Assembly (NCBI GenBank): GCA_035559815.1
Contig: DATMAT010000062.1
Span: 1 to 35,464 of the forward strand
Length of the DNA: 35,464 nucleotides
Reading direction: 5' to 3'
From: Thermodesulfobacteriota bacterium
GTDB taxonomy: Bacteria; Desulfobacterota_D; UBA1144; Nemesobacterales; CSP1-2
The notes under the pieces were generated by a model. It searched no databases, was not told where the DNA came from, and saw only the letters and a list, made by a program, of their open reading frames with translations. The translations under genes were made by a program, and so were the position numbers. Shown here one piece after another: positions 5,036-33,368 of the stretch. Each line of letters begins with the position of its first letter. Positions within the stretch are counted from its first letter, which is position 1.

Positions 5036-5383
5036 ATGAATAGAGACAGGGCGAGAGAGTTAAGGAAGAATCCAACCGATGCTGAAAGGAAATTGTGGAA
5101 ACACCTTCGGCTTCGTCAGCTTGATGGACATAAATTTCGAAGACAACACCCTATAGGACCATACATTGTTGATTTTGCATGTTTGGAAAAGAGACTGATT
5201 GTGGAAGTGGATGGAGGACAGCATAGCGAACGGGTGGTTTACGATGAAGAGCGTAGTGAGTGGCTAGAGAGTCAAGGGTTTCGAATTCTCAGATTTTGGG
5301 ATAATGAAGTTTTAACAAGTGTAGATGTGGTAAAAGAAGTTATAGCAGAGGCTTTAAATAGTGGGTCTAACCCCCACCTTTAA
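5036..5383 (+). CDS. DUF559 / Vsr-like PD-(D/E)XK endonuclease
   Basis: A 115-residue protein of the DUF559 family, predicted to be a small DNA endonuclease of the restriction-endonuclease fold related to the very-short-patch repair nuclease Vsr. Family signatures are TDAERKLW (14-21), FRRQHPIGPYIVDFAC (34-49), LIVEVDGGQH (54-63) and ILRFWDNEVL (84-93). D46, E57 and D59 are the probable catalytic and metal-binding residues, so the active site looks intact. The start codon follows directly on a G-rich repeat end (GGGATGGGGG). The last codons, for SNPHL, and the TAA stop lie in a repeat unit that recurs at 5566-5651. The gene is thus an exact passenger within a repeat array and does not look like part of the glycan pathway. 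A role in mobility of the repeats is possible but not shown. Confidence 0.87.
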   Translation: MNRDRARELRKNPTDAERKLWKHLRLRQLDGHKFRRQHPIGPYIVDFACLEKRLIVEVDGGQHSERVVYDEERSEWLESQGFRILRFWDNEVLTSVDVVKEVIAEALNSGSNPHL

Positions 5384-6225: not shown

Positions 6226-7725
6226 ATGAATCTGAGCCAAAAAATAAAAAGTGGGACTGCCTGGGTCTCTATAGCCCATTTCGGTTCTAATATTCTATCT
6301 CTAATCACCACGGTAATACTGGCCAGGTTACTGCTTCCCAAAGATTTTGGTATTGTGGCCATTGCCATGGTCGTATGGGAGCTCGTACGGCTGTTTGGGG
6401 ACGTGGGAATAGCCGCTAAGCTGATATATCAGCAAGAAGACGTAGACAGATATGCCTCGGCGGCCTTTTGGCTGAATATCTTAGTTGCTTTGTGCTTAAC
6501 CTTGCTCACGGTGCTCGTCTCTCCCCTTGCCGCCAGCTTCTATGATAATGACATGGTAAAACCGATCTTAATGCTGTTGGCCTTGGGATTTTTCTTGAAT
6601 TCATTCGGCAGTATCCATTCAACATTGCTCACCAAGGAGCTAGACTTCAGGAAAAGGAGCCTGGTAGAGATTGGTGTAACTACGATATCAAAAGCAATAA
6701 CCATAGCTATGGCATTTGCCGGATACGGGGTCTGGAGCCTGGTTATTCCCGAGGTTTTTTCCTCTCCCGTTCGGGTTCTGGGGTTCTGGATGGTGTGCCC
6801 CTGGCGGCCGAGCCTAAAGTTTGGCCTGCGTTACTGGAAAGAAATCTTTGGATACGGGAAATACATATTCGGCAGTAACTTACTGCGCTATTTGAATATC
6901 AATGGCGACTATATGGTAATCGGCAAGTTTTTAGGCGCAGGGGAGCTCGGTTTGTACACCTTCGCTTATAACCTGGCGGATTGGCCGGTAAAGAATATTG
7001 TGTGGATTGTGGGTAGGGTTGCCTTTCCTGCATTTTCAAAGCTGCAAAAGGATTTAGGCACGATGAAAGAAGTATTCTTAAAGATGACCAGGCTATTATC
7101 ACTCGTAACCTTTCCTTTATTCATCGGGCTCTTAGCTGTAGCAAATGAATTAATCCCGGTCGTATTCGGCGAGAAATGGAACAGGTCTATAATTCCCCTA
7201 CAGATAATAATAGGGTTTACTATGATACGCTCTTTTGTTTCACCATGCGGGCAGATTATTCTGGCACTGGGTAGACCGGATATCGATTTTAAGTTTAATG
7301 CGGTTCAGGTGCCTTTACTTTTAATTGCGGTATTAATCGGTGTTTCCTACGGGATTATTGGTGTGGCGATCGGTATGTCTTTAGTAGTCGGTCTCATGGG
7401 AATCGTATTCCTGAGACTTTCTATAGGTTTAATCAATTTAGACCTAATTAGTATATTAAAGGTACTTTTTCCAGCCTTAACCTCCTCCTTATTAATGCTT
7501 TTTTCGGTACTGGCTCTAAGATATGTTCTAATCGATTTCGGATACAAGAGTTACCAGGTTTTGTTAGCCTGTGTTCCATTTGGCGGTGTTATGTATTTTT
7601 TAGCCCTGCTCACTTTTTTTAGAGGGAGCTTTCAAATGCTTTGGGGTATGTTTATGGATGTCCTGGGGAATCGTATTGCCGGTATTAGAAAAAAGGGTGT
7701 GTCCTATTACTCTTCAGCCCCTTGA
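6226..7725 (+). CDS. Wzx/WzxC-type polysaccharide flippase (MOP superfamily)
   Basis: A 499-residue polytopic membrane protein with about twelve to fourteen hydrophobic segments. It matches the polysaccharide-transport branch of the MOP exporter superfamily, which flips lipid-linked oligosaccharide units across the cytoplasmic membrane. The N-terminus, with SGTAWVSIAHFGSNILSL followed by ARLLLPKDFGIVAIAMV and FGDVGIAAKLIYQQED, is typical of WzxC-like members, and the length is normal. It has no nearby co-directional partner within 270 bases on either side. It supports a Wzx/Wzy-type route for this locus, together with the ligase/polymerase-like protein at 17137. Confidence 0.92.
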   Translation: MNLSQKIKSGTAWVSIAHFGSNILSLITTVILARLLLPKDFGIVAIAMVVWELVRLFGDVGIAAKLIYQQEDVDRYASAAFWLNILVALCLTLLTVLVSPLAASFYDNDMVKPILMLLALGFFLNSFGSIHSTLLTKELDFRKRSLVEIGVTTISKAITIAMAFAGYGVWSLVIPEVFSSPVRVLGFWMVCPWRPSLKFGLRYWKEIFGYGKYIFGSNLLRYLNINGDYMVIGKFLGAGELGLYTFAYNLADWPVKNIVWIVGRVAFPAFSKLQKDLGTMKEVFLKMTRLLSLVTFPLFIGLLAVANELIPVVFGEKWNRSIIPLQIIIGFTMIRSFVSPCGQIILALGRPDIDFKFNAVQVPLLLIAVLIGVSYGIIGVAIGMSLVVGLMGIVFLRLSIGLINLDLISILKVLFPALTSSLLMLFSVLALRYVLIDFGYKSYQVLLACVPFGGVMYFLALLTFFRGSFQMLWGMFMDVLGNRIAGIRKKGVSYYSSAP

Positions 7726-10792: not shown

Positions 10793-10839
10793 GGATAGGT
10801 GGCCACAGTGAATTCTCAAGTTAAATAAAGGAATTGTTC

Positions 10840-12861
10840 ATGAAAATTAGAGAATACTCCGAGAAGTTGGGACTGCTTACTCCCTTAGCTGTGATCTCCT
10901 TAACCTTAATGGACTTCAGTGGTACTGCCTTTGCTGTCTCAGGAAATGAACTTGAATATGAGGCTAAATATTTAATCTCTTCTATATTAACCGACCGTAT
11001 GCAGGTCTTACTGCTGATCCTGACCGGCATAGCGTCCATTTTAGCTTTTTTACCGGCTATAAAGGGCTCAAAAGGTTACCTGGCTAATCTTAAAACGGCC
11101 GCCATTTTGGCCATCTTCGTTAGTTTCGTATTGGGTATCCTGAAGAGCGTCACATTTGTTATATCTAACAAATATGTACAGTATGAGATGTACTATTTAA
11201 TTTTCCATTCGGCTTCGTCAATCCTGACCACCTACCTATTGATTGCCCTTTCCGCATTAATAGCTATTTCCCTTGCACTCATCACGGTCAACGGCTTTCT
11301 TGGTCTTTTCGGGGCTGGCAAAAGGGTTAAGGGCATTATCGGAGCAGGCCTGGTTCCCGCCCTGTTAATGTTTGTAATAGGGGGATACTGGCTGAATAAA
11401 ACATATTTTCCTGCATTTTCGGGGTTGAAGAGCATCATAGGAAATGTTATATGGGCTCTTCTTTGTTTTTTGACTGGCTTTCTTTTAGGGTGGGCAGTAA
11501 TCAAGATGTCAAAATTGAGCCTATATCTTTCCAAACTCGACAGTTTTAGGAGCCCGGCCGGAATATTGATCCTGATAATCCTGCTTAATTTAATTACCTT
11601 TTTTTATCAGCCGTCGACGAAGTCCGGTCACCCCAACATAATTCTGATCTCCATAGATACGCTGAGGGCGGACCACCTTGGTTCTTATGGATACGGCCGC
11701 GATACCACTCCAAACATCGACCGTTTTGCCAAAGACGCTGTACTATTCACAAACACAATCGCCCAGTCGTCCTGGACCTTGCCATCACATATGTCTATGC
11801 TTACCGGCCTATATCCGTCCGGCCATGGGGTTATGAGGCCCAGCAGTAAGCTTAGCGATGGGCATTTGACCATAGCGGAAATTTTACAAAACGCCGGATA
11901 CGAAACCGTAGCTTTTACGGACGGAGCTTATCTCAGCCATCGATTCGGCTATCAAGGCTTTGACCACTTTGATGATATAGGTTATGGCATCGAAGCTATC
12001 TACGCTAAGGCGGTAAATTGGCTTAAAAAAGGCCATTCAAGGCCGTTCTTTCTTTTCTTACACACCTACCAGGTCCATGCCCCCTACGATCCTCCGCCTG
12101 CTTATGATATATATAGCGACAAGAACTACGGTGGAATCGTGGAAGTATCCGGCAATAGCAACGACTATTACAAAGAAATTAAACCGTTAATGACGCTTGA
12201 GGATTATCATTACGTAATTGATAAATATGATGGAGAGATATATTATACGGATTATTACCTGGGAAAACTTTTTAATAAGCTTAAAGAGTTAAATCTATAC
12301 GACGATAGCATTATAATTCTTACCTCCGACCACGGTGAAAACTTTTTAGACCATCCTGCTTACCATATCGACCATAAGGAACTGTACGACGAAATAGTTA
12401 AGGTTCCTTTAATTATTAAGGCGCCCATGTTTCCAACCAATCAGATTATAACTACTCAAGTTGAAAGCATAGACATTATGCCTACCGTGCTCGAGAAACT
12501 CGGTATTTCACTTCCTAATTGGATTGATGGAAAGAGCGTAGTAGAGCTGGTACAAAAAGGGACTTATGGCAAGACTCATGCGTTCAGCGAAAGGAATTAT
12601 CGTTATAAGATGATTAGGAGCAACGATTGGAAGCTGATTCATAGGTCGGATACCGAGCTTGAGCTGTTTGACCTAAAGAACGACCCCGGTGAGCAAGAGA
12701 ATCTTATAGCGGAGAAATCGAGTATTGCCAAACCTCTTTATGAGAACCTAGGTTTCTGGATGGATATTCAAAAAGAAAAATCGAAGCTGTTTACCGCTGA
12801 TAAAATCGAGCTTGACGGCGAATTGACTCAAAAGCTTAAGGCCCTTGGCTATGTGAATTAA
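10840..12861 (+). CDS. Membrane-anchored alkaline-phosphatase/sulfatase-superfamily enzyme with Thr at the nucleophile position
   Basis: The N-terminal 260 residues hold about seven hydrophobic segments and the rest is an extracytoplasmic sulfatase-fold domain. Metal-site landmarks are ILISIDTLRADHLGSYGYG (D273 region), HAPYDPP, ILTSDHGENF and a later HIDHKELYDE. At the nucleophile position the sequence is W312-T-L-P-S-H317: threonine where true sulfatases need Cys or Ser for formylglycine, and His where they have Arg. Thr nucleophiles are known in phosphoethanolamine and phosphoglycerol transferases of the same superfamily. A phospho-transferase or phosphodiesterase role on the glycan is therefore more likely than sulfate-ester cleavage. 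I start at ATG 10840 because AAAGGA stands seven bases before it; a TTG two codons earlier is less likely. The C-terminus ends LKALGYVN, much like the paralogue at 29582. Confidence 0.85.
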   Translation: MKIREYSEKLGLLTPLAVISLTLMDFSGTAFAVSGNELEYEAKYLISSILTDRMQVLLLILTGIASILAFLPAIKGSKGYLANLKTAAILAIFVSFVLGILKSVTFVISNKYVQYEMYYLIFHSASSILTTYLLIALSALIAISLALITVNGFLGLFGAGKRVKGIIGAGLVPALLMFVIGGYWLNKTYFPAFSGLKSIIGNVIWALLCFLTGFLLGWAVIKMSKLSLYLSKLDSFRSPAGILILIILLNLITFFYQPSTKSGHPNIILISIDTLRADHLGSYGYGRDTTPNIDRFAKDAVLFTNTIAQSSWTLPSHMSMLTGLYPSGHGVMRPSSKLSDGHLTIAEILQNAGYETVAFTDGAYLSHRFGYQGFDHFDDIGYGIEAIYAKAVNWLKKGHSRPFFLFLHTYQVHAPYDPPPAYDIYSDKNYGGIVEVSGNSNDYYKEIKPLMTLEDYHYVIDKYDGEIYYTDYYLGKLFNKLKELNLYDDSIIILTSDHGENFLDHPAYHIDHKELYDEIVKVPLIIKAPMFPTNQIITTQVESIDIMPTVLEKLGISLPNWIDGKSVVELVQKGTYGKTHAFSERNYRYKMIRSNDWKLIHRSDTELELFDLKNDPGEQENLIAEKSSIAKPLYENLGFWMDIQKEKSKLFTADKIELDGELTQKLKALGYVN

Positions 12862-17136: not shown

Positions 17137-18546
17137 ATGCTGACTAACACTAACTATGCAACATACCGAAAAATCGGACCTGTTGTGGGCGGCCTTTTTA
17201 TATTGTTATTCACAGCTTACATGCTGGGGTGGATGACCACTGATGATAAATTGGGCCTCATGGCAATACCCTTGGTGGTTGGTCTTTGTGGTGTCTTTAT
17301 CCTTCTGAAGTATCCGAATGTCGGATTCGCTTTAATGTTTTTCTTGATTCCTCTAGGACCTATCACTCGCATAGGTGGGCCTCGCTCGATTGAGTTTTTT
17401 CTGGGGGTTTTGCTTATGGGAGTATTCGTCAGTAGGATTCTCCTACTACACGAGAAAATCAAATTTGACCGCATTTCGTTGCTTGGATGCATATTTGCGG
17501 CTTGGGCAGTGCTTAGCTCTGTTTGGGCTGAAGATACCAAACAAGCTCTATTTCATGCTATCGTCAGGTTAAGTCAGATGATAGCCTTCTACGTTCTAAT
17601 AATAAATTACTGCCGTAACGAACGTCGGCTCGATATTATTACCTTGAGCTTTATAGCAGGTGCAGTTCTTGCTGCGTTAATAACTTTGGTCAAGGGGGTT
17701 AAGGTTAGTGACACCGAAAGGACCTCATTTGCTAAGGGATTTGACCCTAATTATTTTTCTCTAATAATTAGCCTGTCCATGATATTAATGTTCTACTATT
17801 TTTACAAAACTAAGTATAAGCTCTTACAGATTATATTTATTTTATGTAGCTTAGTTATCACCTATGTAATTATAAAAGCCCAAAGCCGTGGGGTTTGGGT
17901 AGCTCTACCCATATCATTTCTTCTAACAGTTGCTATTCTTCACCGAAATTCAAAAATAGTAAAATATGTAACTCGTGTATCAGTAGTTTTGGTACTCGGA
18001 GTGGTTTCTGCGTATTATTCCGGGGTTATCAACGAATCTGTTGTGGAAAGGGTTAAAACCCTTACTTACCTTTTTTCTGATGATCCACAGGTTAGAGTAA
18101 CTGGCCGTTTTGAAATTTTGGATGTGGGAAAGGAAATGATAAAAAATACTATGCCATTTGGTGTTGGCTATGCTAACTTTAAACTTGTTTGGAATCAATA
18201 TAGACCACTTACTGATATTGAAGATCTTAGTTGGCAATCAAGGCGCGCAAAAGGAGCACACAATACATTCCTAGCTGTTTTAGCTGAATTGGGGATATTT
18301 GGGTTTATTATTTTTATAGCGATTTTTATTCATATCTTCAGGAATATAATGAGAATTGGTAATCCAACTACTCGCTTTATTTTTATTTGGCTAATTGCCT
18401 TCTTTATGATCGATAGTCTGACTTTAGTTACACACACCATGCCATGGTTTTGGTTTATGTTAGCATTGATTGTTCTAAGAGCAAAGTTTGAAAGGCAAAC
18501 TAAACAGTTAGCTGATCGAATGAATTATTCTTCTATTCCTCGCTAA
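17137..18546 (+). CDS. O-antigen ligase/polymerase-like membrane protein (Wzy_C family)
   Basis: A 469-residue polytopic membrane protein with about eleven to twelve hydrophobic segments and one large external loop between residues 290 and 385. The loop contains a probable ARG-rich stretch (RVTGRFEILDVGKEMI) and ends in GAHNTFLAVLAELG, where H375-N376 matches the conserved histidine region of the WaaL/PglL/Wzy family. Such proteins ligate polysaccharide to lipid A core or protein, or polymerise repeat units, at the outer side of the inner membrane. Sequence alone does not separate ligase from polymerase. TAGGAGA stands only two bases from the ATG, an unusually tight spacing; the chosen start still covers the first membrane segment. 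Confidence 0.87.
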   Translation: MLTNTNYATYRKIGPVVGGLFILLFTAYMLGWMTTDDKLGLMAIPLVVGLCGVFILLKYPNVGFALMFFLIPLGPITRIGGPRSIEFFLGVLLMGVFVSRILLLHEKIKFDRISLLGCIFAAWAVLSSVWAEDTKQALFHAIVRLSQMIAFYVLIINYCRNERRLDIITLSFIAGAVLAALITLVKGVKVSDTERTSFAKGFDPNYFSLIISLSMILMFYYFYKTKYKLLQIIFILCSLVITYVIIKAQSRGVWVALPISFLLTVAILHRNSKIVKYVTRVSVVLVLGVVSAYYSGVINESVVERVKTLTYLFSDDPQVRVTGRFEILDVGKEMIKNTMPFGVGYANFKLVWNQYRPLTDIEDLSWQSRRAKGAHNTFLAVLAELGIFGFIIFIAIFIHIFRNIMRIGNPTTRFIFIWLIAFFMIDSLTLVTHTMPWFWFMLALIVLRAKFERQTKQLADRMNYSSIPR

Positions 18547-24498: not shown

Positions 24499-24650
24499 AA
24501 TTTCTATAGAAATGGATTATTTACGCTAAGTAACCTTTCTGACCTTTTGCAGTTTCGGGGTAAAAAGTATATGTTAGGTGAACCCTTTCTTTTTAAGCTA
24601 AAAAATATTTGGTTGTAAGTCCCTTAAGTTATGAACTAAACGGGGCCAAT

Positions 24651-25721
24651 ATGAGTCTGCTCAAAAACTACAAATTTGATTCTAGACATTACGTTGAAGC
24701 CCAAGAAAGACAAATGAAAATGAATACCAAAGAGTCCTACCTGAAAAGACCTTTTGATTTGCTCTTGTCTTTCATCGGTCTGGTGATCTCTTTCCCTCTC
24801 TGGGTTATCATATCCGCCGCAATATATCTTGAGGACGGAAGACCCATCTTCTATAGCCAGACCAGGCTGGGCAAAAAGGGAAGGGTGTTCAAACTGCTCA
24901 AGTTTCGGTCTATGATAAAGGATGCTGAACAGCAGACCGGCGCGGTATGGGCGAACAAGGAGGACCATCGCATTACAAAGATAGGCGGTTTCCTCAGAAG
25001 GACCGCTCTGGATGAGCTGCCGCAGTTACTAAACATATTCAAGGGCGACATGAGCTTTGTCGGCCCGCGTGCGGAAAGGCCGGAGATTGCCAGGGAGATT
25101 TTAAAAGAAATTCCTGATTTTAACGACAGGCTTCTTGTACTTCCCGGACTGACCGGGCTGGCCCAGGTTTACGGAAATTACAACACCCCGCCCAGAAAAA
25201 AATTGCGCTATGACCTACTTTACATAAAGAATCAGAGTTTTTGGCTGGACTTAAAGCTTATTTTGATATCTTTCTGGATTACCTTCACATTCAAATGGTC
25301 GGAGAGGGAGAAGAGGGCGGAAAGGCTGATAGGCCAGATTATGTTGGAAGCCGGGGTTATAACCGACCAGGAATTAAATGACGCTTTAGAACACCAAAGG
25401 GTATGGGGTGGAAAGGTAGGTGAGAATCTTATCCAATTGGGCTATATTACTCATCCGGAGCTTAGACACTTTCTAAACCTGCAGGTGGTACAGAATGGAA
25501 AGGGTAGCTGGATAATTAAGAATAACGATAATGGTAGTCATAAATTAATAGGTCAGATACTGCTGGAATCGGGAGTCATAACTGAGGAGCAGTTAATGGA
25601 CGGTCTGGAGAACCAAAGGGTGCGCGGCGGTAAAATAGGGGAAAATCTCGTCAAGAAAGGATACATTTCCGAATCCCAGGTTGCGTATTTTTTGAATAAA
25701 CAGCTTGAGATGAATAGCTAA
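24651..25721 (+). CDS. Initiating sugar-phosphate transferase (monotopic PGT) fused to two MshEN-type domains
   Basis: Residues 27 to about 215 are a bacterial sugar transferase (Bac_transf/WbaP-PglC type): YLKRPFDLLLSFIGLVISFP forms the re-entrant membrane helix, then FKLLKFRSM, LRRTALDELPQLLN with the catalytic D121-E122 dyad, GDMSFVGPRAERPE, and PGLTGLAQVYG. It should move a sugar-1-phosphate onto undecaprenyl phosphate, the first step of the glycan. Residues 224-279 and 297-353 are two copies of an MshEN domain. Each copy has two 24-residue motifs with G, G, L, L and final Q at the family spacing (226-249, 255-278, 299-322, 328-351), separated by five residues (RVWGG and RVRGG). MshEN binds cyclic di-GMP in MshE. 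The second motif of each copy starts with Lys, and the first starts with Leu preceded by Arg or Lys, so binding is plausible but not assured. The ATG at 24651 is preferred to an in-frame TTG at 24609. Confidence 0.88.
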   Translation: MSLLKNYKFDSRHYVEAQERQMKMNTKESYLKRPFDLLLSFIGLVISFPLWVIISAAIYLEDGRPIFYSQTRLGKKGRVFKLLKFRSMIKDAEQQTGAVWANKEDHRITKIGGFLRRTALDELPQLLNIFKGDMSFVGPRAERPEIAREILKEIPDFNDRLLVLPGLTGLAQVYGNYNTPPRKKLRYDLLYIKNQSFWLDLKLILISFWITFTFKWSEREKRAERLIGQIMLEAGVITDQELNDALEHQRVWGGKVGENLIQLGYITHPELRHFLNLQVVQNGKGSWIIKNNDNGSHKLIGQILLESGVITEEQLMDGLENQRVRGGKIGENLVKKGYISESQVAYFLNKQLEMNS

Positions 25722-25947: not shown

Positions 25948-26209
25948 ATGTAAAAGTCTAATGGAGCGAAGGTAAAGGATCCGATTTTAAGATTTTTTAC
26001 CAAGCTTATATAATGTACTTGGGACGAGCTCTGGGGTATAGCGAAGGGTTCAGCATGACAACAAAGTTAAAGGTGACTGTCCCCAGGATATAATTAAATT
26101 TAGTGTTTGTTTGATTAAGTTCAGACTAATGCAAGTATCAGCCTATTTATAGGTTTTACCTTTGAAGCGGCTATCCACGTCGCTAAAAGAGTTTGATGGA
26201 GGGATTCGT

Positions 26210-28300
26210 ATGAGAGTGGGCATCATTGGTTGCGGGCAGATTGCTAATATACACATTCCGGTTATTAAAAAATATCCGAATGTCGAGATTGTAGGGCTTG
26301 CCGACGTCAACGTGGAGGTATTGGAAAACACCGCCTCCAAATTTCACATATCCGATAGATTCACTAATCCTCCTGACTTAATCGAGAAGAAGAAGAGACC
26401 GGAAGTAGTTCATATACTCACCCCTCCTCAATATCACTATGAACTGGCTAAAATGGCTCTAGAGGGGGGCTGCCACGTTTATGTGGAAAAACCAATGTGC
26501 ATGAATGCGGCCGAAGGGGAAAAATTGGTTAAATTGGCCAAACAAAAGAATCTTAAGCTTTGTGTCGGCCATAACCATCTTTTTGACTCGGTCATGGTAG
26601 AAGCGAGAAAGCTGGCAGAGCGTGGGGATGTAGGAACAATCTGCTCTATAGAATGTTGCTACGGGTCCGACCTTGGTTCGGACTCTAAAGGACGCTATTT
26701 CACGCAGGCTTACAGGCACTGGGTCTATCAGCTCCCCGGCGGCATTTTCCAGAACCTTCTGGACCATCCGCTTTCCGTTATAATACCGTTTATAGGCAAC
26801 CCCACTTCGGTATACTCGCTTTCGGCTGAGGCTGGAGTCGTTCCGCCAGGAATTCCCAGTGAGTTGCAGGTTATCCTCGGGGATGGCCGCATTACCGCGC
26901 ATATTAATCTTTCGTTGGCAGCCAGCCCCCGGTTCTACCACCTAACCCTTTACGGAACCAACGGAAATATATCCGTGGATTTCTTTAACAAGCGGATTAT
27001 TCAACGCTCCCATGGAAAAATGCCCAGGGCGGTTTCCAGGGCGCTTTTTAATCTGAAAGAAGGGTCCCAGATTCTGACCAGCACGTTATCCAATACGGGA
27101 AAGGTGCTCACCGGGAGATTTTTCCCCTACGAAGGCCTAGAGAGGCTAGTCACCGAGTTCTATAAATCAATCGAAACGGGTATCCCTTCTCCGGTCCCAC
27201 CGGAGAGCGGCCTGACCGCCTTACGAATCATGGATACGGTCTGGAAACAGATCGATTATCCCAGGGACAATGCGGCCCTGATGAAGAAGTATAGGGTCCA
27301 ACCGGATTCATCGGCTAAGGTAAAGATTCTTATAACCGGCGCCAGCGGGTTTGTAGGGGCAAACCTTTTGAAGAAATTAAGTGAGAATGACAACTATTAC
27401 ATAAGGGCGATGGTTCGGAATCCAAGGAAAATAGAGGGTCTGGTGAAGGATCGCCCGATAGATATATTCATAGGAGACCTATCCGATGAAAAAAGCGTTT
27501 TCTCGGCTGTCGAGGGAATAGACGTAATCTATCATATAGCGGCAACGATGGGGGGTAAATGGTCTGATTACGTCGAGGGAACTATCAAGGGTACCGAGAG
27601 ATTGGTGCAGGCTGCCTTACAACACCGAATAAAAAAATTTGTGTATATAAGCTCGATCGCTGTTTATGGAATCCCCGAAAACGGCAACAGGCCCATAATG
27701 GAAGATAGCCCTTATACCAGTAATCATCTGAATAACTACATTAAATCTAAGATTGAGGCTGAGCGGATTATTCTTGAGAATGTGAAAAACAACCAGTTGC
27801 CTGCCACCATACTGCGGGCCGGTGTAATTTACGGCCCGGGGAGAGTAAATCAACTACCCAGGATCGGGTATCAGCTTGTTGGAAAGTTTTTCGTCAAGAT
27901 TGGCCTCAATAGCGTGACCCTTCCGGTGGTTTATATAGATAACGTGGTGGATGCATTGATACTGGCGGGGAACTCGGAAAACAGCGTCGGACAGGTTTAT
28001 AATGTCGTCGACGACGAGCGATTTACCCAGATGGAATATCTCAGCAAACTCAATGAGTACGGCAAAGAGCGTATATACTACATTTCTTTTCCCTACACAT
28101 TGGCATCCGGCGTCGGCTCCATTGCCGGGAAGTTGAGCAAATACAGCCCTCACTTAGAGAGAATCTCGTCTTACCTTTCACCCTTTCATTTGCAAAGCTG
28201 TGCCAAAGAGCTCGACTATGATAACTCCAAAATTAAGAGGGAATTGGGATGGAAACCCGATTCTGATATTGACAAACATTTCAGAAGAATCTTCGGATAA
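26210..28300 (+). CDS. Fusion of a Gfo/Idh/MocA oxidoreductase with an extended-SDR nucleotide-sugar epimerase/dehydratase
   Basis: One 696-residue chain joins two NAD(P)-dependent sugar enzymes. Residues 1 to about 365 are Gfo/Idh/MocA: GIIGCGQIANIHIP (Rossmann loop, 4-17), VHILTPPQYHYELA near 67-80 and E93-K94-P95, the conserved cofactor/substrate motif. Residues from 370 are an extended SDR: ILITGASGFVGANLL at 373-387, a GDLSD stretch, YISSIAVYG and the catalytic Y510-I-K-S-K514. Gfo/Idh/MocA members oxidise sugar C3 or other positions of nucleotide sugars, and the SDR half would epimerise or dehydrate, so the pair could act in sequence on one nucleotide sugar. I start at ATG 26210 because GGAGGG lies six bases upstream; an in-frame TTG at 26162 has no such site. 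Both active sites look intact. The reading frame is continuous with no sign of a frameshift joining. Confidence 0.88.
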   Translation: MRVGIIGCGQIANIHIPVIKKYPNVEIVGLADVNVEVLENTASKFHISDRFTNPPDLIEKKKRPEVVHILTPPQYHYELAKMALEGGCHVYVEKPMCMNAAEGEKLVKLAKQKNLKLCVGHNHLFDSVMVEARKLAERGDVGTICSIECCYGSDLGSDSKGRYFTQAYRHWVYQLPGGIFQNLLDHPLSVIIPFIGNPTSVYSLSAEAGVVPPGIPSELQVILGDGRITAHINLSLAASPRFYHLTLYGTNGNISVDFFNKRIIQRSHGKMPRAVSRALFNLKEGSQILTSTLSNTGKVLTGRFFPYEGLERLVTEFYKSIETGIPSPVPPESGLTALRIMDTVWKQIDYPRDNAALMKKYRVQPDSSAKVKILITGASGFVGANLLKKLSENDNYYIRAMVRNPRKIEGLVKDRPIDIFIGDLSDEKSVFSAVEGIDVIYHIAATMGGKWSDYVEGTIKGTERLVQAALQHRIKKFVYISSIAVYGIPENGNRPIMEDSPYTSNHLNNYIKSKIEAERIILENVKNNQLPATILRAGVIYGPGRVNQLPRIGYQLVGKFFVKIGLNSVTLPVVYIDNVVDALILAGNSENSVGQVYNVVDDERFTQMEYLSKLNEYGKERIYYISFPYTLASGVGSIAGKLSKYSPHLERISSYLSPFHLQSCAKELDYDNSKIKRELGWKPDSDIDKHFRRIFG

Positions 28301-28367: not shown

Positions 28368-29477
28368 ATGGCTAGACTGGATCTGATACCCCATATTTTA
28401 AGGTGGCATGATTCCCTGGCGAGCTATACACCGGTTTTAAGTTCGATACCATTCATGCCGGGAAAGGCCAGGGCTCGTACGTGCAGAATCTACATAAAAT
28501 CAAAGATTGACCAAAAGGGCAGGGATGCAATAGCCAAATTCATCAATAACTTGCCGTCAAAGGCTTTAGAGTACCCGCAGGTTGTCTCAAACGTGACCGA
28601 TGAGCTATATCAGGAGTTCAGCTATGAAGAGTTATGCGAAGGCATAATTCCCCGGATAGCCGGGAGAATCGAAAATATAAGGAGCTTGAGTGAAAGTCAA
28701 AAGTTGTACATTTATCTTATGCTGGGGGCTCACCAACATGCCCGGAGATATCTCGATAATTTGCCGGTGTTAAGAAAGCCGGACTTCATAATTGCCGGTG
28801 CCCAGAAAGCCGGGACTACCTGGTTAATGGACGCTTTAAGCAATCATCCGGACATCTGGGGCACACCCACAGAATTACACTATTTCACTTCAAACCGCCG
28901 TAGATGGACCTGGGAGGAGTACCTGGCGCTGTTTTCTTTGAGCGGGAGTAGATTGAACGGAGAAAAATCGGTTACCTATCTTCAGGTCATTGACGAGGTT
29001 GTAAATAAGCTACCCGGAACCAAAGTATTCGTAATTCTCCGCGACCCGTTTGATAGGATAGTATCGCAGTATTTTCATGATATACGCAATCATAGGTTTA
29101 GAGATAGGAATGGAATTAAGAATATAAAAGATTATATTGAAAGAAATATAGGGGATTGTAGGGAACGGGGTTTATATTATTCGAATATAAGAAATAGCCT
29201 TTCTAGGATCAATATTCTTTTTTATCAGGAGATCTCTGATAATCCAGTAGCATTACTTAAGATCGTTTTAATGGCACTTGGGTTGAGAGACGTTGATCCT
29301 ACTGACCTGATTCCAAAGAGAAGGATAAACAAGTCGGACAACAAGCCAAAGATATCATATAAAGAATTTCTCAAGAGCGCAGGATTAGCCCAGACTTTAA
29401 AAGAATATTACTATGATGATATCAGTAAATTGTCCCAGGTGACCGGAAAAGATTTGTCCAGTTGGATGGATTGGTAA
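28368..29477 (+). CDS. PAPS-dependent sulfotransferase with a novel N-terminal region
   Basis: The C-terminal 230 residues are a sulfotransferase domain. The 5'-phosphosulfate loop is GAQKAGTTWL (144-153), the 3'-phosphate site is LRDPFDRIVSQYFHD (224-238), and TELHYF plus GEKSVTY (198-204) fit the acceptor-side elements. The enzyme should transfer sulfate from PAPS to a hydroxyl or amine, probably on the glycan or its precursor. The first 135 residues are not part of that domain: basic, mostly alpha-helical in appearance, with QKGRDAIAKFINNLPSKALEYP and LYIYLMLGAHQHARRYLDNLP. I do not recognise them. No signal peptide is seen, so the enzyme is cytoplasmic or peripheral. It starts 67 bases after the fusion gene and both may share a transcript. 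PAPS synthesis genes are not in the window. Confidence 0.87.
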   Translation: MARLDLIPHILRWHDSLASYTPVLSSIPFMPGKARARTCRIYIKSKIDQKGRDAIAKFINNLPSKALEYPQVVSNVTDELYQEFSYEELCEGIIPRIAGRIENIRSLSESQKLYIYLMLGAHQHARRYLDNLPVLRKPDFIIAGAQKAGTTWLMDALSNHPDIWGTPTELHYFTSNRRRWTWEEYLALFSLSGSRLNGEKSVTYLQVIDEVVNKLPGTKVFVILRDPFDRIVSQYFHDIRNHRFRDRNGIKNIKDYIERNIGDCRERGLYYSNIRNSLSRINILFYQEISDNPVALLKIVLMALGLRDVDPTDLIPKRRINKSDNKPKISYKEFLKSAGLAQTLKEYYYDDISKLSQVTGKDLSSWMDW

Positions 29478-29581: not shown

Positions 29582-31735
29582 ATGAATCTGCGCCATTTTT
29601 TTTATTTTGTTCTATTGGGTGGCTTATTCGGGCTTTTGATAATTTCCCTCGAACTTAGAGTAATATCTCAAGCACGTTTTGAGTGGGAAAGCAATCCTGC
29701 ACTTGGCCTCTTTTTATCCGGATTTCCATGGTACATTGTGTCGCATTTCTTTTTAGCAATGGTAGCTGCCGGAGTGTTATGCCTGGTGTTTAAATTCTTA
29801 ATAGACCACCATCCGGCGGGCTTGTTGTGGCCTGTTTGGGGACTTTATCTGCTGCTGTTTTTGGATTTATTTTTGATAAGCAGCCTTGTTTTCAGTCAAC
29901 GCTTTTTCTTCCGTTCTTCATTGTCTGGCTGGTTATTGGGGGGATTACTGCTTACCGGGGTTGTATTATGTGTGACATTAATTCCCTGTATTTTGTTGAA
30001 TTTCCTTTTTAGAACTCGGCTAAAGCTAAGGCTTGGATTACTGCTTATTTTTCTCTCCGCTATATCTTTTACTGTTATAACCTGGCTGCATCAACAAGAA
30101 GTGGAAATAACCCAGCAAGTTGCTCTGGCAGGTCAAATATTTAACCTCGGAGTACTAATATGGTTTGTGAAAGGTTTTCTTCTTGGCTGCTTAGCTCTAC
30201 TTGTAGCTTTCTTTTTTGAGTATTGTGTCGAGCGTGCAACGAGAAAAGATTTCTTATCCGGCTCAATTACAGTTTTGCTTTTCTTAATTCTGCTAACAGG
30301 TCTCGTTTGGATTTGGATATTGGCTTGGAAACCGGAACAAGCCGGGCTTACTTCGGACCGAGAACCTCATCGGGATTCCCCTAACGTGATACAGATAGTC
30401 ATTGACACCCTGGGAGGGAAGTACCTGGACCCGGGCCTGCTGGAACAATATCCAGCATTTACCGAATTGGCTAAAGATGGGTTTCAATTCGTCCGCGCAT
30501 ACTCGACTGCTTCCTGCACCTCCTGGAGTGTCCCGGCAATCCTGACTTCGAGCTTCAATTTTGTAAGCTCAGGACGTCAGTTCGATGAGTTCGGTTGGTT
30601 GGATGAGAACGAAATTACCACAGCAGAAATCTTCAAAGAAGCAGGATATGAAACGGTTGGATTCTCTGCGAACCCCGTCACGAGCGAAGCTTTTGATTAC
30701 AATCAAGGGTTTGACCATTTTAGGGGTATAAAGGGAGGCAGCCTGCTCGGAGTTTACATTTTAAAAGCCCTGGGTACGCAGAATACCAAATTTGCATACC
30801 AATATGGATTGGTTGACTCCGGATTTTATTATCAGGATATAAAAGACCTTTATTACAAACTGGAGAGTTATCTCTCTCAAAACCATGCGCGTCCTTTCTA
30901 CATTTATGTACAGACTATGGACTTGCATGCTCCTTATATGCCTCCCAAGGAATATCTGGATAGCGATTTTAGGTTTGATGACTTCCGTTCTCACTGGGAG
31001 CTTTCGGCGATGAAGAAAACCGGAAAGATCAGTGAAGTCCCGGAGGCCATCAGGAAAAACGCGCTTCAACTTTATCTCGGTGAGCTGAAGTACACTGACG
31101 AGTATTTAGCAAAGCTTATTCAGTTATTGAAGAGGTTAAATCTTTATGATAATACGATGATTGTAGTTACGTCCGACCATGGCGAAGAGTTTTGGGAGCA
31201 CGATTCATATGCGCATTGCTCAACGAAGGCATATGATGAGTTGATCCGTGTTCCGTTGTTCATAAAGCCTCCGGGCTCAGCAGAAATTGACGGTATAGGC
31301 TCGGTCATGGAAGAGAACGTATCTACGCTTGACATACTTCCTACCATGGTTGATCTTGCTAACATAAACCTTGCCCCCTCGCAAAAAGAACATTTTGAGG
31401 GTCGCAGCCTTCTTCCTTTAATTCAGGAGAAATCGGACAACATGAACCACAGGATGCTATACGGCATTGAACGGAATTTATATTTCGCCATTCAGAAGCG
31501 ATGGAAATTACTCTGGAGGGGCAAGGCAAAAAAATTCGAGCTCTATGACCTTGAACAGGACCCACTCGAAAAAGAGGATGTTTTTTTGCCGAGACAGTCG
31601 AGTGTGAAAGATGCGGTGGTGGACCTGAGCGTTTTTGCCAGTAGTTTCAATACTGAAACGGAATATGAGAAGGGAAACCAGAAATTAGACCCTAGCCTGG
31701 AGGAGAAATTGCGCAGTCTCGGTTATGTTCAGTAG
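29582..31735 (+). CDS. Membrane-anchored alkaline-phosphatase/sulfatase-superfamily enzyme (second copy type)
   Basis: A 717-residue protein with about seven hydrophobic segments in the first 255 residues and an extracytoplasmic sulfatase-fold domain after them. Metal landmarks are IQIVIDTLGGKYLDPG (D275), DLHAPYMPPKEY and VVTSDHGEEFWEHDSYAH. The nucleophile region reads C312-T-S-W-S-V-P-A-I320. The position matching the sulfatase Cys/Ser is S316, but the expected Arg two residues after Pro is Ile, so conversion to formylglycine is unlikely. It resembles the gene at 10840 in topology, domain order and the ending LRSLGYVQ, though the two are clearly diverged. It is more likely a phospho- or sulfo-transferase or hydrolase of the glycan than a canonical sulfatase. 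It follows the sulfotransferase by 104 bases. Confidence 0.85.
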   Translation: MNLRHFFYFVLLGGLFGLLIISLELRVISQARFEWESNPALGLFLSGFPWYIVSHFFLAMVAAGVLCLVFKFLIDHHPAGLLWPVWGLYLLLFLDLFLISSLVFSQRFFFRSSLSGWLLGGLLLTGVVLCVTLIPCILLNFLFRTRLKLRLGLLLIFLSAISFTVITWLHQQEVEITQQVALAGQIFNLGVLIWFVKGFLLGCLALLVAFFFEYCVERATRKDFLSGSITVLLFLILLTGLVWIWILAWKPEQAGLTSDREPHRDSPNVIQIVIDTLGGKYLDPGLLEQYPAFTELAKDGFQFVRAYSTASCTSWSVPAILTSSFNFVSSGRQFDEFGWLDENEITTAEIFKEAGYETVGFSANPVTSEAFDYNQGFDHFRGIKGGSLLGVYILKALGTQNTKFAYQYGLVDSGFYYQDIKDLYYKLESYLSQNHARPFYIYVQTMDLHAPYMPPKEYLDSDFRFDDFRSHWELSAMKKTGKISEVPEAIRKNALQLYLGELKYTDEYLAKLIQLLKRLNLYDNTMIVVTSDHGEEFWEHDSYAHCSTKAYDELIRVPLFIKPPGSAEIDGIGSVMEENVSTLDILPTMVDLANINLAPSQKEHFEGRSLLPLIQEKSDNMNHRMLYGIERNLYFAIQKRWKLLWRGKAKKFELYDLEQDPLEKEDVFLPRQSSVKDAVVDLSVFASSFNTETEYEKGNQKLDPSLEEKLRSLGYVQ

Positions 31736-31917: not shown

Positions 31918-33368
31918 CCTGAATCCTGCATAAAAAATTATTGAATGTTAACAAAAATGTTGCAAATAACACATAATATCAATAAATTGAAGGGAAATTC
32001 TTCTCCGAAACAAACATACCTTTTAGTTAGGTTTATTTCGGATGCCCAGGGACCGAAAAATCTTCAAATCTCATTCAGCGGAAAACGGTTAACCCACTTT
32101 GGTGGTGTCTATCTTCTATATTGCTTCTTTAAGAAAATTCAACTCAAACCAAAGCTTGGAAAGGAACTCTCATTCAGTCAACGCAACAATCGTTTCACTA
32201 TTTCAGAAGAACTATTGTCGCTCATTTATCCAATCATCCTCGGTCTTGGTCATATAGAAACATCACATCTTTTGAGACATAATGGTGTCTTTCAATATCT
32301 CACCGGGTTACCGACATATCCCAATCTAACTACACTCAGACGATTCCTGTTACGGATGGCCCCACTGGCATTACCTAAGCTCCGAGCCCTGCACGACAAA
32401 CTGTTGTCCATGATGTCTGGAAAACCAGAAAAACCGACAGCGGTCATCTTCGATTTAGATTCAACTATGCTCAAACTCTATGGCAAACAAGAGTTGGCAC
32501 GGGTTGGCTACAATCCTCTCAAACCCGGGCGAGTCTCCTATCATCCACTTCTCTGTTTCAATGGCCTTACCAAGGACTACTGGCACGGAGAACTCCGATC
32601 GGGCGATACACACACGTCTACCGGAGCAATCCAACTCCTGCAAGCATCGTTTGCCAAGCTGCCAGAATCAGTAATAAAAACCATCAAAGTACGCGCAGAC
32701 AAAGGATTTTTCGACCACGAGATCATCGAGGCGATAGAAGACAAAGCTCAATTTATCATCGTTGCCAAAGCAACAAAACCCATCAAACGAAAACTTCAAT
32801 CACTCCGATATCAAAAGCATTCCTCTGGAGCAGAGTCTTCCGAGTTTTACTATCAACCCCATCGATGGAGCAAACGGTATCGCTTTATTGCCATTCGTCG
32901 ACCACTACCGGAAGAGCAAACACAACAACTCAGTTTATTTACCCTTGGTCGTTACAGTTATCAGGTCTTCGTCACCAATATGAAACTGACCCCGCTCAAT
33001 TGCTGGAAGTTCTACAACCAGCGAGCAGCGGTCGAGCTGATTATCAAAGAACTCAAGCACGATTACCCCTTAGCCAAAATACCGACGAAATACTTCCAGG
33101 CAAACGAGGCATATTTTCATATCCTCTTATTTGCCTACAATCTATTGAATTGGTTTAAGCGATTATGTTTGCCGAAAGAATATCATCCTCTGACATTAAG
33201 CACTTTACGATATCGATTATTGCTCATCCCTGGAGAGTTCGTCAGGTCGGGGAATCGACCGATATTAAAACTTCCAGCAAATTTTTATTATAAAGAGGCA
33301 TTTCAACATGCATTGAAAAGTATTAAAATATTGAAGCTTTAACTAGTCACTTTCACGCAGGATTCAGG
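31918..33368 (+). mobile_element. Complete IS1380-family insertion sequence (1451 bp)
   Basis: The left end CCTGAATCCTGC (31918-31929) is an exact inverted copy of the right end GCAGGATTCAGG (33357-33368). Both are flanked by the five-base direct repeat ATTAT (31913-31917 and 33369-33373). With an intact transposase this looks like a recent insertion. It landed between the sulfatase-superfamily gene and the secreted hydrolase-like gene, 13 bases before the latter's ATG, and would separate that gene from any promoter further upstream. Confidence 0.88.
31945..33342 (+). CDS. IS1380-family DDE transposase
   Basis: A 465-residue transposase that moves the surrounding element by a cut-and-paste reaction. 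IS1380 features are IFDLDSTMLKLYG (D170/D172), YHPLLCFNGLTKD, VRADKGFFDHEII (D252) and YNQRAAVELIIKELKHDY (E364) followed by LLFAYNLLNWFK. D170, D252 and E364 fit the catalytic triad. The length is usual for the family and there is no internal stop. Two ATGs lie close together (31945 and 31957); neither has a good ribosome binding site, so low expression is likely. It has no functional link to the glycan genes. Confidence 0.9.
   Translation: MLTKMLQITHNINKLKGNSSPKQTYLLVRFISDAQGPKNLQISFSGKRLTHFGGVYLLYCFFKKIQLKPKLGKELSFSQRNNRFTISEELLSLIYPIILGLGHIETSHLLRHNGVFQYLTGLPTYPNLTTLRRFLLRMAPLALPKLRALHDKLLSMMSGKPEKPTAVIFDLDSTMLKLYGKQELARVGYNPLKPGRVSYHPLLCFNGLTKDYWHGELRSGDTHTSTGAIQLLQASFAKLPESVIKTIKVRADKGFFDHEIIEAIEDKAQFIIVAKATKPIKRKLQSLRYQKHSSGAESSEFYYQPHRWSKRYRFIAIRRPLPEEQTQQLSLFTLGRYSYQVFVTNMKLTPLNCWKFYNQRAAVELIIKELKHDYPLAKIPTKYFQANEAYFHILLFAYNLLNWFKRLCLPKEYHPLTLSTLRYRLLLIPGEFVRSGNRPILKLPANFYYKEAFQHALKSIKILKL

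Follow-up and report, generated by a model that had tools for sequence, protein, structure and literature searches.

The polysaccharide cluster and its predicted initiating transferase

The window, meaning the whole analysed stretch of 35,464 nucleotides, is a polysaccharide cluster containing many glycosyltransferases, a Wzx-type flippase, a Wzy_C polymerase, epimerases, a sulfotransferase and two sulfatase-family proteins. The flippase candidate (Polysacc_synt_3; 6226..7725, + strand) was identified with Pfam PF13440 at 6.3e-88, and the Wzy_C/O-antigen ligase-type polymerase candidate (17137..18546, + strand) with Pfam PF04932 at 9.6e-19; the latter is 41% identical to its counterpart near the fused gene of another genome (G001) described below. 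We infer from this content a Wzx/Wzy pathway, whose first step would be catalysed by the fusion enzyme. Both sulfatase-family proteins (10834-12861 and 29582-31735) have long N-terminal regions and are 30% identical to each other over 463 residues; together with the sulfotransferase (28368-29477), they raise the idea that the polymer may be sulfated or bear phospho-group modifications. A single ORF at 26162-28300 joins a Gfo/Idh/MocA oxidoreductase to an NAD-dependent epimerase, a small DUF559 endonuclease-like protein (5036-5383) is embedded among the glycosyltransferase genes, and a DDE_Tnp_1_4 transposase with an intact ORF (31945-33342) lies close to the cluster end. The search for riboswitches in the window returned no Rfam match.

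The fusion gene (24651..25721, + strand) is complete, starts with ATG and encodes 356 amino acids; an in-frame TTG at 24609, upstream of this ATG, is a possible alternative start. Residues 32-212 (24744..25286, + strand) constitute the Bac_transf catalytic domain of a monotopic phosphoglycosyl transferase (monoPGT), with Pfam PF02397 matching at 3.5e-63. An N-terminal membrane helix belongs to the catalytic part, and only about 28 residues precede the core. By sequence, the catalytic domain was found to match WbaP and PglC in the PDB at about 1e-31, and Foldseek with the 356-residue model ranked PglC first (8.5e-13). The catalytic dyad D121-E122 (LDELPQL; 25011..25016, + strand) is read directly from the translation and is invariant across all monoPGT rows aligned. 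The protein is thus the complete monoPGT with this dyad that the first-pass annotation had described. The hallmarks of large PGTs, namely an N-terminal four-helix membrane bundle and DUF, are absent ahead of the core, and the protein is therefore assigned to the small monotopic PGTs.

The MshEN tail and its ligand positions

The catalytic domain is followed by a junction of residues 213-225 (25287..25325, + strand; local pLDDT about 67-70 in the structure model) and by a tail of two complete 53-residue MshEN units, each consisting of two 24-residue motifs and a five-residue spacer. Unit 1 (residues 226-278; 25326..25484, + strand) reads LIGQIMLEAGVITDQELNDALEHQ-RVWGG-KVGENLIQLGYITHPELRHFLNLQ and matches NF053729 with 59.6 bits, above the cut-off; key positions and fold agree with the assignment. 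Unit 2 (residues 299-351; 25545..25703, + strand) reads LIGQILLESGVITEEQLMDGLENQ-RVRGG-KIGENLVKKGYISESQVAYFLNKQ and also exceeds the cut-off, with 68.9 bits, its key positions again agreeing. The linker between them (residues 279-298; 25485..25544, + strand) is of low model confidence, with pLDDT below 50 for residues 268-296 of the full-length model. All four motifs and both spacers are thus present where the first-pass annotation had placed two MshEN domains.

Profile and fold comparisons point in the same direction. NCBIfam NF053729 ('cyclic di-GMP-binding domain, MshE-related') matches the protein in two stretches (E 5.5e-34; 115.7 bits, cut-off 38), and the NfrB profile also matches the tail (7.5e-13). 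With phmmer, the tail was found to match the PDB sequences of MshE (5htl, 7.7e-8) and Thermus PilF (1.1e-12). The model of the tail (pLDDT 73) has four helices, a linker and four further helices, and every one of its top ten PDB fold matches is to an MshE or PilF GSPII domain. The closest is MshE with c-di-GMP (5htl_B; rmsd 0.6 A over 57 columns, probability 1.00, E 0.044), the modest E value presumably being due to the shortness of an MshEN unit.

Pfam PF05157, now named MshEN, was silent on the fusion protein. On a small MshEN protein of the same genome (L003), it was observed to cover residues 77-160 only, and its silence is attributed to the model representing the C-terminal alpha/beta subdomain (MshEN_C), which is absent from the tail; since it represents another subdomain, PF05157 was dropped as a test for MshEN. 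The profile search that had been proposed for the tail was thus positive with the curated model and negative with PF05157, and the MshEN assignment stands on the curated profile match, the fold match and the key residues. In MshE, the four-helix part on its own binds c-di-GMP at 0.35 uM, and the C-terminal alpha/beta subdomain is dispensable there (PMC5013675). Weak DUF4388 and FumaraseC_C matches to the protein were under the cut-off and were read as cross-matches, the genome having proteins with MshEN-like stretches of the DUF4388 kind.

The ligand positions are well preserved. Gly at position 3 and Gln at position 24 are intact in all four motifs, and the order's other two-unit tails all share this; the hydrophobic positions keep Leu, Ile or Val in all four motifs. 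Position 2, with consensus Leu, is Ile or Val throughout, which counts against the preferred reading given below, and positions 17 and 21, also with consensus Leu, show a single exception, a Val at 17 in unit 2. At position 1, the two units agree: motif I has Leu and motif II has Lys, and the Arg of the original MshEN motif is found there in neither. The first-pass annotation had taken the Arg of motif I to be displaced by one residue; this does not hold, because Leu replaces it at the aligned position and the visible Arg/Lys precedes the motif.

The missing Arg is not disqualifying, because later work accepts Arg, Lys or Leu at this position. GSPII-B of Thermus PilF has Lys and Leu at position 1 and binds c-di-GMP at 6 nM; its K167L mutant has a KD of 2 nM; and the PilF authors widened the motif consensus to (R/K/L)LG and proposed that hydrophobic residues at position 1 predict very high affinity (PMC11731258). 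In motif I of E. coli NfrB, position 1 is Pro and position 24 is Arg, yet NfrB binds c-di-GMP at 1 uM and requires it functionally (PMC8669469). The present tail is therefore closer to the binding consensus than a proven receptor is. Each of the two MshEN units is predicted most likely to bind one c-di-GMP.

Distribution of the tail and the c-di-GMP proteins of the host

The suggested survey of genomes for the same fusion showed that it recurs. Five of 58 genomes of the phylum, all from the same order, encode a monoPGT-MshEN fusion, with two units in the window's genome, G041, G019 and G043 and one unit in G001. When a further enzyme, described below, is included, six genomes, again all of this one order, have a C-terminal MshEN tail on an initiating transferase, a narrow distribution that weighs against the preferred reading given below. 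Outside the phylum, no fusion was found among about 540 genomes at the thresholds used (1e-60 to 1e-74, and 1e-16 for the tail alone) and with only five or ten candidates scored per genome in the searches of 387 genomes, settings at which diverged fusions could be missed. The out-of-phylum match reaching furthest into the tail, to residue 270 (G137), was rejected, as it reads through a stop into another gene. Viral contigs contain PGT relatives, none with a tail, and in a single scan of genome contigs with the tail as query, PilB/MshE-type ATPases were the only returns. The opposite domain order was seen in a 470-amino acid protein (L019:694-2103, G004:C93), in which a split MshEN-like stretch and a VanZ-like membrane domain precede the monoPGT.

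The further enzyme, from G008 (L050, or L075:9697-11178; G008:C6), is a 494-residue WecA-like polytopic PGT with a two-unit MshEN tail. Its catalytic domain matches PF00953 at 2.5e-35 and TIGR02380 at 1.3e-62, the latter under its cut-off, and its tail matches NF053729 at 8.7e-29. The tails of the G008 and G019 proteins are 56% identical over 135 residues, while their catalytic domains are of different superfamilies. Between these two proteins, the first units match each other at 0.64 and the second units at 0.62, versus 0.45-0.49 for the cross pairs; because like units pair, the tail moved as one piece. Both PGT genes occupy equivalent places in the locus: each converges on Wzy_C and adjoins a conserved gene run for Wza-type export, Wzz/tyrosine-kinase, TPR and Wzy proteins, which are 55-77% identical between the two genomes. 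From these comparisons, either the catalytic domain would have been swapped under a kept tail or the tail would have been handed between enzymes. Whichever history applies, selection appears to act on the tail jointly with the role of initiating transferase at this locus, and that the enzyme changes and the tail stays argues that the tail regulates initiation. The odds are modestly in favour of a broader proposal, namely that a transplantable c-di-GMP-sensing cassette, joined at the same locus to both unrelated initiator superfamilies (monotopic and WecA-type polytopic), gates the committing, undecaprenyl-phosphate-consuming step of exopolysaccharide synthesis, so that regulation outlives replacement of the enzyme. 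The swapped enzyme under a constant tail amounts to a natural control experiment.

The age of the duplication within the tail has two parts. Because two-unit tails are found in two of the order's families and also on the WecA-type protein, the two-unit form looks old, in line with the first-pass annotation, which had regarded the duplication as old and kept. The second unit of the window protein stands apart: it resembles first units at 0.57-0.60, including its own first unit at 0.60, versus 0.43-0.51 for the second units of other genomes. It therefore looks like the product of a gene conversion or a parallel duplication in this lineage, with weak support from the tree.

The host genome (3.97 Mb, 98% complete) is rich in c-di-GMP proteins, with at least ten GGDEF domains and eleven MshEN-profile matches, one of them in a GGDEF-EAL-MshEN protein. 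It also has six PilZ domains; the earlier claim of independence from PilZ is nonetheless fair for the fusion protein itself. Several other proteins of the genome combine related parts. The GGDEF-EAL protein with a C-terminal MshEN (L005:124-1941, G000:C70) is a c-di-GMP turnover protein with a c-di-GMP receptor domain, and shortly downstream its contig has a further GGDEF match. A Wzz/tyrosine-kinase-type chain-length protein with a 1057-amino acid frame (L039, G000:C46:4196) ends in a DUF4388-like region, part of which is an MshEN-like stretch, and its module is apparently also present in a Ser/Thr kinase-like protein (L037) and a DnaJ-like protein (L036). A PilZ protein (118-amino acid frame) and a 165-amino acid MshEN protein are encoded less than 1 kb apart (G000:C19:91147-92118).

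Proposed regulation, alternatives and known systems

The fusion enzyme is predicted to be a UDP-sugar:undecaprenyl-phosphate sugar-1-phosphate transferase that initiates synthesis for a Wzx/Wzy-type cluster and has a built-in c-di-GMP receptor, most likely an activating one; this joint reading is given a probability of about two in three. That c-di-GMP directly controls the initiating step has indirect support from the GGDEF domains in the genome, from the conservation of the fusion and from the same tail being found on an unrelated initiator at the same locus. The full-length model merges the junction and helix 1 of unit 1 into one helix (residues 216-233, local confidence about 70) that begins four residues past the last helix of the catalytic domain (residues 197-212). 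Binding in MshE-type domains undoes the initial turn of helix 1, as described for PilF GSPII-B (PMC11731258). Because helix 1 is here predicted to be continuous with the junction, binding could shift the packing of the tail on the membrane-bound active-site face, and such a repositioning would serve as an intramolecular switch. By analogy with NfrB and synthases, c-di-GMP would most likely activate the transferase, and undecaprenyl phosphate would then be spent on this polymer only at high c-di-GMP.

The same tail being present on two unlike enzymes also allows recruitment, which is kept as the main rival: the tail would bind c-di-GMP and mainly recruit or position the enzyme, for example at a Wzy/Wzz/export complex or a local diguanylate cyclase, leaving catalysis unchanged. 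Docking is easier to reconcile with two structurally unrelated catalytic domains than a specific allosteric contact is, and in several relatives the gene adjoins Wzy and Wzz-kinase/export genes. However, in the NfrB precedent it is the fused enzyme that is activated (PMC8669469), and a junction of only about 13 residues to the catalytic domain suits direct coupling; recruitment is accordingly judged unlikely. The opposite sign of control, in which binding inhibits the transferase and the pathway is shut at high c-di-GMP, is permitted by the same architecture, as sequence does not show direction, but NfrB and the other synthases, the glycan enzymes known to be under c-di-GMP control, are activated by it, making inhibition quite improbable.

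The tail could also act via protein contacts instead of a ligand, its units being non-binding GSPII-like helical bundles for oligomerisation or protein contacts. Loss of ligand binding from this fold has precedents in XpsE/GspE and PilF GSPII-A. One motif of PilF GSPII-A is still nearly perfect, yet the domain fails to bind, for which other residues and an N-capped helix 1 are responsible (PMC12002112). Unlike these proteins, the window protein has every Gly3 and Gln24 in place, as do the other two-unit tails of the order, and a non-binding tail is regarded as very improbable. The presence of the same tail on an unrelated starter enzyme in a related bacterium suggests that it is a switch that can pass between enzymes and turn the first step of polymer synthesis on or off. 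If this is true, the fused MshEN tail would put a second messenger on the committing step and explain the rationing of scarce undecaprenyl phosphate.

c-di-GMP controls synthase-type polymers directly. Gating of glycan synthesis by this messenger is thus already known, and here it would be moved to the committing step; what is new is the recurrence of the fusion across an order, together with the same tail on an unrelated WecA-type initiator. Post-translational control of Wzx/Wzy pathways has been called incompletely understood, with action on the initiating PGT demonstrated or proposed for a kinase and a response regulator (PMC12802240). A passage of the same paper, citing O'Toole 2021, describes accessory-domain fusions of small monoPGTs, including receiver domains, and the main text of the MshEN paper names fusions with REC, HD-GYP, CheA, CheX, cyclases and kinases (PMC5013675). 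The searchable literature yielded no MshEN-PGT fusion, although supplements or the 2021 monoPGT survey may already list one; in that literature, MshEN is not linked to a sugar transferase and occurs with undecaprenyl only in an NfrB study.

How does the fusion compare with known systems? Like the MshEN of MshE-type ATPases, the tail has two 24-residue motifs with a five-residue spacer, a four-helix bundle and Gly/Gln ligand positions, with fold matches of 0.6-1.2 A, but it is without the C-terminal alpha/beta subdomain and lies in two copies at the C-terminus of a membrane enzyme, whereas the MshE-type domain is N-terminal on an ATPase. E. coli NfrB (GT2-MshEN) is likewise a glycan-synthesis enzyme with a C-terminal MshEN; it is a processive GT2 synthase, whereas the fusion is a predicted undecaprenyl-phosphate-charging initiator with two MshEN units. 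The catalytic core and dyad are common to the fusion enzyme and small monotopic PGTs of the PglC type. EpsZ-EpsW of Myxococcus xanthus resembles the proposed system in being an initiating monoPGT under post-translational control (PMC12802240), but there the control comes from a separate response regulator and its target is a large dimeric PGT, whereas here a second-messenger domain is fused to a small one.
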